From: Mucilaginibacter sp. SMC90
GTDB lineage: Bacteria; Bacteroidota; Bacteroidia; Sphingobacteriales; Sphingobacteriaceae
Reading direction: 5' to 3'
Length of the DNA: 64,000 bases
Assembly (NCBI RefSeq): GCF_022811725.1
Contig: NZ_CP094527.1
Span: forward strand, 6,634,001 to 6,698,000
Below are positions 55,812-57,669 of this stretch, one piece after another. The stretch's first letter is position 1. The number at the start of each line of letters is the position of its first letter. Made by a program: the position numbers and the translations under genes. The notes under the pieces were generated by a model, which worked only from the letters and a program-made list of their open reading frames with translations, ran no database searches and was not told the origin of the DNA.

Positions 55812-56159
55812 TTAAAAACCTTCCTCTGCTGCCGTTAAAACAGCTTTTTTGGCTGTAGCATCAGCAATGGCTTTCTTTTGTTTATGCTTTTCAATCTGCT
55901 TCCTAAGGCTTTCAACTGCCAAATCGGTTGCTTCCTCAAAACTCTTACACTTCTCTTTTGCGAATATCTGATTTCCGGGCAATAATAATTTGATCTCCGC
56001 TATCTTATTACATTCATCTTCCACATTCTCAAGCTTTAAGTAAACTTCACCGCTAATAATATGGTCATAAAACGTATCAAGCTTGTCCGTTTTCTTCTGA
56101 ATAAAATCTAAAAGTTTCTTGTCTGCGGTGAAATGAATTGACTGCACTGTAATTTTCAT
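55812..56159 (-). CDS. hpf: ribosome hibernation-promoting factor, short HPF/RaiA family
   Basis: 115 residues, a single S30AE domain with no C-terminal dimerisation domain. 'KITVQSIHFTADKKLLDFIQ' opens the beta-alpha-beta fold, and the helix 'KCKSFEEATDLAVESLRKQI' plus a Lys-rich segment follow. The family blocks the decoding site of idle ribosomes. It is 12 bases after the xerC stop. Unlike most genes here it has a strong Shine-Dalgarno sequence. Confidence 0.9.
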   Translation of the reverse strand: MKITVQSIHFTADKKLLDFIQKKTDKLDTFYDHIISGEVYLKLENVEDECNKIAEIKLLLPGNQIFAKEKCKSFEEATDLAVESLRKQIEKHKQKKAIADATAKKAVLTAAEEGF

Positions 56160-56162
56160 GTT

Positions 56163-56170
56163 TCCTCCTT
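56163..56170 (-). promoter_or_regulatory. Shine-Dalgarno sequence of hpf
   Basis: On the - strand AAGGAGGA lies a few bases before the ATG at 56159. Nearly all other starts in the window lack any such sequence. Confidence 0.75.
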
Positions 56171-56171
56171 T

Positions 56172-57083
56172 TTAAGCCTTTGGATGGGCGAGTTTATAAA
56201 TAGATTTTAATCGTTCAACTGAATTATGCGTGTAAATTTGGGTTGCGCTCAGGTTAGCGTGCCCCAAAAGTTCTTTAATTGAATTTAAGTCGGCCCCGTT
56301 ATTTAGCATGGTGGTTGCAAACGTGTGCCTGAGCACATGGGGGCTACGTTTATTTTGAGTTGATATGTTGGAAAGGTATTTCTGCACTGTTAGGTAAATC
56401 AATTTCGGATAAGCATCGGCTCCTTTATTTGTAACGATTAATGTAAAGGAATTGTTATCAAAATTTTGATTTTTCTTTAACTCCAAATATTCGGGCAGCA
56501 GGATTTTTAGCTCATTATTAACAGGAATGATGCGTTCTTTGTTGCGCTTGCCTAATACCTTCACCACTCCTCCATCAAGGTTAAGATCCTGTTCCTTAAT
56601 ACCTAACAGTTCGGCAAGGCGTATGCCGGTACCAAACAACAGTTCAATAACAAGCTTATCGCGCAGGCCCGGAAAATCGTTTGTAAAAATGTCATCACTA
56701 TCTAACATTTTTGTTAGGCGGGCATCTTCAACTACAACAGGCAACGTTTTAGCAACCTTTTGCGACCGCACCCTGGATACAGGGTTAGTTTCAACAACAC
56801 CCTCCTGCAATAAAAATTTAAAGTATTTGCGCAGCGTGGCCATTTTACGGTTAACCGAACGGCCCGTAAGTTTTTGATCAATAAGCTCAACCATCCAGTT
56901 ACGGATATCATGATAACTTACCTGCGACGGATGGGTAATAACCGGCTCGGGTGCGGGATCGGCACCGCCGGGATTGTTTAAAAAGCGCATGAACTGATCC
57001 AGATCAGACTGATATGCGGAAACAGTATGCACTGAATACCGCTTTTCATACTTGATGTATTGGATAAAACGCGCTAAAAACAT
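56172..57083 (-). CDS. tyrosine recombinase XerC/XerD-like
   Basis: 303 residues, the normal Xer length. The N-terminal SAM-like core-binding domain opens 'FIQYIKYEKRYSVHTVSAYQ'. The catalytic set is complete: Arg155 ('GTGIRLAEL'), Lys179 region ('LGKRNKERIIP'), His249 and Arg252 ('HVLRHTFATT'), His275 ('LLGHANLSA') and Tyr284 ('TQIYTHN'). Such proteins resolve chromosome dimers at dif. I see no att sites or integrase context, so a housekeeping Xer is the best call. Confidence 0.88.
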   Translation of the reverse strand: MFLARFIQYIKYEKRYSVHTVSAYQSDLDQFMRFLNNPGGADPAPEPVITHPSQVSYHDIRNWMVELIDQKLTGRSVNRKMATLRKYFKFLLQEGVVETNPVSRVRSQKVAKTLPVVVEDARLTKMLDSDDIFTNDFPGLRDKLVIELLFGTGIRLAELLGIKEQDLNLDGGVVKVLGKRNKERIIPVNNELKILLPEYLELKKNQNFDNNSFTLIVTNKGADAYPKLIYLTVQKYLSNISTQNKRSPHVLRHTFATTMLNNGADLNSIKELLGHANLSATQIYTHNSVERLKSIYKLAHPKA

Positions 57084-57174
57084 AAAAAACTATTTATACA
57101 TCCGGGATGATGAATGTACAAATAGTTTTAATATAGTGTCAAGAAATTAATTAATTCTTTTCAACAAAAAAGAA

Positions 57175-57366
57175 TTAAACAGTTTCCTGGTTTAAACCTT
57201 GTTTATATATAGCATGTTTAACAACATGACGACGGGTTACAGATTTCTTTTCGAAAGCCTGACGACTGCGTAGTTCTCTTAAAACACCTGTTTTTTCGAA
57301 TTTCTTCTTGAAGCGTTTCAATGCTTTGTCTAATGATTCGCCGTCTTTTACGTTAATAATGATCAT
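57175..57366 (-). CDS. rpsU: 30S ribosomal protein S21
   Basis: 63 residues. 'VKDGESLDKALKRFKKKFEK' and 'LRSRQAFEKKSVTRRH' are diagnostic. S21 sits next to the anti-Shine-Dalgarno end of 16S rRNA. The ATG at 57366 ('MIIINVKDGE') is chosen over an upstream TTG. The mRNA carries an extended Shine-Dalgarno sequence, GAAAGGAGGT, unlike neighbouring genes. Confidence 0.97.
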   Translation of the reverse strand: MIIINVKDGESLDKALKRFKKKFEKTGVLRELRSRQAFEKKSVTRRHVVKHAIYKQGLNQETV

Positions 57367-57378
57367 AATTCCTAAAAT

Positions 57379-57388
57379 ACCTCCTTTC
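57379..57388 (-). promoter_or_regulatory. extended Shine-Dalgarno sequence of rpsU
   Basis: On the - strand GAAAGGAGGT is nearly fully complementary to the 16S anti-SD. It ends 12 bases before the ATG. In Flavobacterium johnsoniae, ribosomes sequester the anti-SD with help from bS21, and an SD on rpsU permits feedback; the same logic is likely here (inference). Confidence 0.8.
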
Positions 57389-57669
57389 AAGGGAGGGCAA
57401 AGATAATCACAAAGTTTTGAATATCAAATAGAGAGCAGGAATTATTTTTGATTACTAAATATATAACACACTCAACAAAACTAAAAGACAAGAAAAGTTA
57501 AATTTTGTTAAGCCGATTTCGCAAGGCTATTTAGTAAACAAACTGTCGAGTTAAATTGCGGCTTAACTTGGTTTAGGTCGAAGTTACTATAGTTAACTTC
57601 GACCTAAACCTGACAAGTAACTGCAGGCAATTTAGTCCTTTACCCGATAAGTCCAATCATATCACTCAC
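57389..57669. other. intergenic region between rpsU and the acyl-CoA dehydrogenase gene
   Basis: About 280 AT-rich bases containing the rpsU promoter region and a perfect inverted repeat (listed separately). No gene detected. Confidence 0.4.
57570..57610. repeat. perfect 17-bp inverted repeat with 7-base loop
   Basis: GGTTTAGGTCGAAGTTA and its exact inverse flank CTATAGT. It lies 59 bases downstream of the acyl-CoA dehydrogenase stop and 204 bases upstream of the rpsU SD. No T-run follows on either strand, so it may be an operator or a remnant of a mobile repeat rather than a terminator. Confidence 0.7.

Follow-up and report, generated by a model that had tools for sequence, protein, structure and literature searches.

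The rpsU gene of Mucilaginibacter sp. SMC90 is preceded by an extended Shine-Dalgarno (SD) sequence that is perfectly complementary to the tail of 16S rRNA, and this SD very probably serves a feedback in which it is poorly used by ordinary ribosomes and preferred by 30S subunits without bS21. The original prediction had placed an extended SD before the S21 ATG, which was confirmed and proved stronger than claimed, at 12 perfectly complementary base pairs and -18.7 kcal/mol. The motif that it gave, GAAAGGAGGT, does mark an SD, but the true stretch is GAAAGGAGGTAT, 12 contiguous bases long. The window (the whole 64,000-nucleotide stretch of DNA that was analysed) lies in a single-contig genome of 8.13 Mb, where rpsU is the sole S21 match; its closest named S21 matches, among the best 80 of 553, are from Mucilaginibacter, family Sphingobacteriaceae. 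The features of the locus are the following.

57175 to 57366, minus strand: rpsU, encoding bS21 of 63 aa (ATG at 57366, stop at 57175; PF01165, 65 bits; Tyr54 present).
57377 to 57388, minus strand: extended SD GAAAGGAGGTAT, which pairs without mismatch with the 16S 3' tail over 12 bp (-18.7 kcal/mol).
57398 to 57405, minus strand: likely -7 promoter element TATCTTTG, read from the sequence.
57084 to 57129, minus strand: long AT-rich hairpin with a T-run, terminator-like, lying between rpsU and xerC and abutting the xerC start.
56172 to 57083, minus strand: xerC-like tyrosine recombinase (best NCBIfam match TIGR02224, under its cut-off), with no SD.

The rpsU leader reads TTGAAAGGAGGTATTTTAGGAATT-ATG, with 13 nt from the end of GGAGG to the ATG. 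The likely -7 element, 31 nt from the ATG, is so named after the Bacteroidota consensus, TAnnTTTG, and elements like it are visible by eye in relatives. A short rpsU leader transcribed from its own promoter looks likely here too, as in Flavobacterium johnsoniae, whose native rpsU leader is 25 nt (PMC9976891). On the other side of the gene, a 103-nt stretch that takes in the terminator-like hairpin and a second one gave a z of -7.0, and similar hairpins passed a crude test in 42 of 70 relatives.

The 16S tail of the SMC90 genome, GGAAUACCUCCUUUCUGG, is identical in all four copies, and GAAAGGAGGTAT pairs with its segment AUACCUCCUUUC over 12 contiguous bases. The original prediction had proposed that the 16S 3' end and the S21 residues be inspected; the anti-SD is intact, ACCUCCUUUC being present in all four 16S copies, and position 54 of S21 is Tyr. 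The 8.13 Mb contain five exact copies of the 12-mer, at the four 16S 3' ends and at rpsU, against a chance expectation at the base composition of the window of ~1.1 genome-wide and ~8e-7 for any given leader. When the rpsU leader was shuffled, -18.7 kcal/mol was attained once in 5000 shuffles. This energy is below the -13 kcal/mol criterion of the F. johnsoniae type, although our pairing energies were computed with ViennaRNA duplexfold, whereas PMC9976891 used free_scan.

To set the rpsU SD against the genome background, pairing was scored for 339 ATG open reading frames of at least 100 aa, taken longest first from the window and from 20 stretches of 20 kb, a sample for which rpsU itself is too short; mock windows were placed further upstream than the SD windows. 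Mean pairing was weaker in the SD window (-1.5 kcal/mol) than in the mock window (-2.2 kcal/mol), and fewer starts reached -5 kcal/mol (32 versus 54) or -6 kcal/mol (19 versus 37), which agrees with SD avoidance in this genome. The strong tails of the two distributions were approximately equal (SD versus mock: 11 and 10 at -8 kcal/mol, 8 and 5 at -9, 5 and 3 at -10, 0 and 1 at -13). The strongest start in the sample gave -12.2 kcal/mol, compared with -18.7 kcal/mol for rpsU. The claim that nearly all other starts are SD-less thus holds on these averages. The rpsU SD is also stronger than those of rpsF, rpsR (-12.6 kcal/mol) and rplI, and stronger than that of every open reading frame called in the 20-kb S10/spc/alpha stretch, among them rplX (-12.6), rplE (-11.4), rplW (-9.3), rplN (-9.0) and rpsS (-8.7 kcal/mol), gene names in the ribosomal operons being assigned by reading N-termini. 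It is the strongest among the ribosomal protein genes scored, which outside the operon stretches comprised those inside the window or the sampled 20-kb stretches.

Across the genome, the pattern AAGGAGG-N3-14-ATG, which misses SDs as weak as the one before rpsR, gave 137 + 19 matches, and 124 distinct contexts were examined. Twenty-five rows passed the filter and 15 starts (14 plus L275, two rows) were judged to lie outside another long frame; the AAGGAGG starts outside long frames comprise rpsU, hpf and about a dozen others. The nearest rivals to rpsU among these contexts were L332 (-15.9 kcal/mol, a doubtful start), L310 (-14.8 kcal/mol) and L016 (-14.4 kcal/mol). Besides these three, such starts are found at L037, L301, L309, L343, L350, L286, L330, L044, L306 and L275. 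Pfam identified L310 as a DsbD_2 protein and gave no match for seven of the eight N-terminal pieces searched from AAGGAGG-start genes; L037 is Hsp20-like by eye, its 50-residue piece being without a Pfam match, and L301, L309 and L343 are three near-copies of one short protein. Thus rpsU ranks first among the starts examined, yet the genome is not SD-free. That the genome otherwise avoids SDs is correct in that it is SD-poor on average, but slightly overstated, as moderate SDs precede rpsR, rplX, rplE, hpf and about a dozen more of the starts examined.

The proposed function draws on the system described in F. johnsoniae by McNutt et al. 2023 (PMC9976891), where bS21, bS18 and bS6 form a pocket for the 16S tail. 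In that organism, reporters carrying the rpsU leader rose 3- to >4-fold upon truncation or depletion of bS21 or mutation of its Tyr54. Ribosomes without bS21 initiated faster on rpsU mRNA, although one assay showed no rate advantage of the mutant ribosomes at 37 C (PMC9976891). Bacteroidia ribosomes are reported in the same paper not to recognise SDs in vivo or in vitro, and nearly all Sphingobacteriales are stated to have rpsU as the gene with the strongest SD and to have that SD below -13 kcal/mol. With the latter already reported in PMC9976891, the rpsU part of our analysis is not new. The SMC90 genome resembles F. johnsoniae in the rpsU SD below -13 kcal/mol, the intact anti-SD, the scarcity of SDs and Tyr54 of bS21, and 9i5v and 7jil supply the closest solved chains for its bS21, bS18 and bS6, 7jil being the F. 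johnsoniae structure (PMC9976891). It differs in detail: the SMC90 helix ends in GGUAU where that of many Flavobacteriaceae has GGUG, a difference that follows U1533 of the 16S tail, and the spacing to the ATG is 13 nt rather than the 10 nt seen in the Flavobacterium-like loci L221, L223 and L224. The moderate SDs before rpsR, rplX, rplE and hpf are a further difference.

The rpsU SD is conserved throughout the family. The motif GGNGGTA[TC] lies upstream of rpsU in all 80 named Sphingobacteriaceae loci, which are the best 80 of 553. A second set of 30 Sphingobacteriaceae loci yielded 28 with an rpsU start, and all 28 carry the motif. The distance from GGNGG to the ATG ranges from 9 to 14 nt across the 80 loci. 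The spacing optimum in E. coli is shorter than this range. Where the 16S tail has U1533, an A stands opposite in all five Sphingobacteriaceae loci compared, in two of family f2 and in one of f5; where an SD is present in f2 and f5, it reads GGTA. Among 12 Flavobacteriaceae loci with C1533 and an extended SD, G stands opposite (GGTG) in seven and T or A in five (L206, L208, L209, L215 and L435), and where the 16S core is UCUCA, TGAGATG precedes rpsU at two loci, with G opposite C1533 in both. The covariation of SD and 16S tail therefore appears clear but imperfect. Covariation of rpsU with the anti-SD core in Chryseobacterium-type genomes has already been reported (Jha et al. 2021, via PMC8710568); like those genomes, two of ours again have an SD that shifts with the anti-SD, but unlike that core covariation, the base compared here, 16S 1533, is outside the core. 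The Bacteroidia genome G307 has an altered anti-SD core, CCUCU, and a matching AAAGAGGT at its rpsU locus (L225). An extended SD was absent at three loci of the class Bacteroidia: L227, which is a second copy, and L207 and L232, for which no other copy was found in the genome. The five genomes outside the class, in which rpsU start codons are uncertain, gave a wide range of energies: -14.2 and -14.9 kcal/mol for the two copies of G285, -9.9 for G256, -4.3 for G312, 0.0 for G324 and 0.2 for G277.

Genomes with several rpsU genes, and phages that carry their own bS21 gene, may act as natural controls for the feedback. Several rpsU matches were found in four of 29 genomes (G265, G250, G236 and G285). 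The first three, of the class Bacteroidia, have two or three copies each (L433 to L439) and bear an extended SD on exactly one; the other four copies have none, one showing a weak pairing of -9.8 kcal/mol. In G285, outside the class, both copies (L205 and L234) have an SD. The phage set (L353 to L432) comes from viral contigs, where bS21 had 242 matches; the best 80 were taken and contain 37 distinct leaders, none of which has an extended SD to canonical tails. The strongest were L406 (-9.7 kcal/mol) and L356 (-8.0 kcal/mol), and 32 of the 37 were weaker than -5 kcal/mol; L353 resembles Chryseobacterium host DNA and bears the alternative SD of that group. Residue 54 of the phage bS21 is Tyr in 31 of 37 and His in one.

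Other readings of the rpsU SD have to be weighed against these data. It might be an ordinary strong ribosome-binding site that supplies more S21 on all ribosomes without any feedback. S21 is required in large amounts, the 12-bp SD is very strong, and in G285, outside the class, neither rpsU copy is without an SD. Such a site would nevertheless sit oddly with the finding that most ribosomal-operon genes are without a strong SD and that the extra rpsU copies of three genomes and the phage bS21 genes, which also need to be expressed, have no extended SD. Taken with the report that Bacteroidia ribosomes do not recognise SDs (PMC9976891), this makes the ordinary site improbable.

A bS21-independent switch, in which an upstream CCUCC pairs with the SD and hides it, is less probable still, and we regard it as very unlikely. 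The segment CCCUCCCUUGAAAGGAGG can fold, at -8.2 kcal/mol if the transcript begins at the first C, right after the -7 box. The CCUCC, however, sits where the transcription start is expected, and a 25-nt leader would omit it and leave GGAGG in a loop (-4.2 kcal/mol). As a conserved feature the SD-hiding hairpin was rejected, CCCTCCC being found upstream in 7 of 80 named relatives and probably preceding the transcript start. That the SD is a relic or a chance match with no function can hardly be credited: about one copy of the 12-mer is expected genome-wide, but in all 80 named relatives the SD is found immediately upstream of the start, and it tracks changes in the 16S tail, if imperfectly, so that position and conservation lead us to reject a chance 12-mer.

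The bS21 feedback is therefore the explanation that we prefer. In ordinary ribosomes the anti-SD tail would be pocketed by bS21, bS18 and bS6, and the rpsU SD would be poorly used; in 30S subunits without bS21 the tail would be free for 12-bp pairing with the rpsU leader, and bS21 would be made preferentially until the ribosomes were complete again. In favour of the feedback is the distance between rpsU, at -18.7 kcal/mol, and the next strongest starts (-12.2 kcal/mol in the sample, -12.6 for both rpsR and rplX); against it, the starts of L332, L310 and L016 come within 3-4 kcal/mol of rpsU. Also against it are the long spacing to the ATG, the five Flavobacteriaceae loci with T or A opposite C1533, the three Bacteroidia loci with no extended SD, the SD on both copies of G285, the possible folding of CCUCC onto the SD and the lost rate advantage at 37 C in F. 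johnsoniae. Taken together, the intact anti-SD, the SD-poor genome, an SD stronger than at any other start examined, Tyr54, the conservation and the imperfect covariation support the feedback interpretation of the original prediction, and from these sequence features we infer that the same loop, and hence autoregulation of rpsU, runs in the SMC90 species.

A second SD in the cluster belongs to hpf, two genes downstream of rpsU and after xerC.

55812 to 56159, minus strand: hpf/raiA, ribosome hibernation-promoting factor of 115 aa (PF02482, 72.5 bits; TIGR00741, 45.5 against a cut-off of 40.9).
56164 to 56171, minus strand: hpf SD AAAGGAGG, directly after the xerC stop and separated by 4 nt from the ATG of hpf (-12.2 kcal/mol).

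An hpf start was found in 66 of the 80 named Sphingobacteriaceae loci, and GGAGG is present in 64 of these, 4 nt from the ATG in 59 and 5 nt in five. Measured from the xerC stop, GGAGG lies 3 to 6 nt away in the named family loci; as the spacing is tighter to the start codon than to the xerC stop, we regard GGAGG as a start signal. The motif occurred in none of 70 xerC leaders (four had a weaker purine motif) and in none of 66 mock windows. A wider set of 140 loci, from which 44 without an HPF match and two without a start were left out, gave GGAGG in 76 of 79 loci within the family and in 0 of 15 outside it (f2, f3, f4 and f7). In a second set of 29 genomes, where G190 had no match and seven weaker second matches, two of them in the family, were left out, GGAGG was present at all 17 hpf starts of the family and at none of 13 from elsewhere (f2, f5, f8, f9 and f10). 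Both sets together thus gave no GGAGG at 28 hpf starts outside Sphingobacteriaceae. The in-family counts are not independent, since the sets share species and common ancestry, and a Fisher value computed from them is no true probability. The exceptions within the family are L109, with no motif, L142, with a partial one, and L066, with the variant GGGGG. In G001, hpf lies far from rpsU, still follows an xerC-like end and still has its SD.

We considered whether the hpf SD is a by-product of xerC coding sequence, but it follows the xerC stop, and four named loci with no xerC end before hpf retain GGAGG. The third base of the last xerC codon varies (n = 60: GCA 25, GCG 17, GCT 14, GCC 1, GGT 2 and GGA 1); GGAGG is fixed in 64 hpf loci, a set chosen for having it, with 2 of 66 lacking it. 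A plain A-rich leader was likewise rejected as an explanation, although shuffles of the leader reached -12.2 kcal/mol in 83 of 5000, so that the single sequence is moderately unusual and the case for the hpf SD rests on its conservation. With its GGAGG core and -12.2 kcal/mol, it falls in the same strength class as the moderate SDs reported for rpsR and other Bacteroidia ribosomal protein genes (Jha et al. 2021 and McNutt et al. 2023, via PMC9976891). Unlike those genes, hpf encodes a hibernation factor rather than a ribosomal protein, and the spacing is 4-5 nt. Searches of the literature on hibernation factors and SDs in Bacteroidota brought up one paper, on Borrelia, and no title that reports the hpf SD, and a mention in Jha et al. 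2021 is possible; HPF, raiA and yfiA are absent from the main text of PMC9976891, and "hibernat" from PMC8710568. What our analysis appears to add to the known rpsU case is this conserved, weaker SD of hpf.

As to its function, one tentative and rather doubtful possibility is that Sphingobacteriaceae ribosomes without bS21 serve a small regulon, of rpsU and hpf, by way of the conserved SDs. Moderate SDs can respond, since a tuf reporter given AGGAGGU rose >2-fold with truncated bS21 (PMC9976891). Against a response of hpf, PMC9976891 holds an extended SD to be necessary, and hpf, at -12.2 kcal/mol, falls short of the -13 kcal/mol threshold used for rpsU control. The hpf SD may instead aid the restart, 12-16 nt further on, of a ribosome that has just finished xerC; this would not be the whole story, because loci without the xerC stop keep the SD. 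It is also conceivable that hpf is one of several translation genes with moderate SDs in this family.

Autoregulation of rpsU offers a clear example of specialised ribosomes in bacteria, and the window would be a textbook Sphingobacteriaceae member of it. What appears to be new is that the cluster contains another gene, whose product inactivates ribosomes, with an SD kept in nearly all loci examined of an SD-avoiding family. If bS21-lacking ribosomes do act on both genes, shortage of bS21 would lead the cell both to replenish its ribosomes with bS21 and to park those still incomplete, hibernation would come under the control of bS21 supply, and phages whose own bS21 gene is SD-less would not be subject to the feedback. 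It is thus testable whether ribosomes that lack bS21 control hibernation in addition to their own repair.
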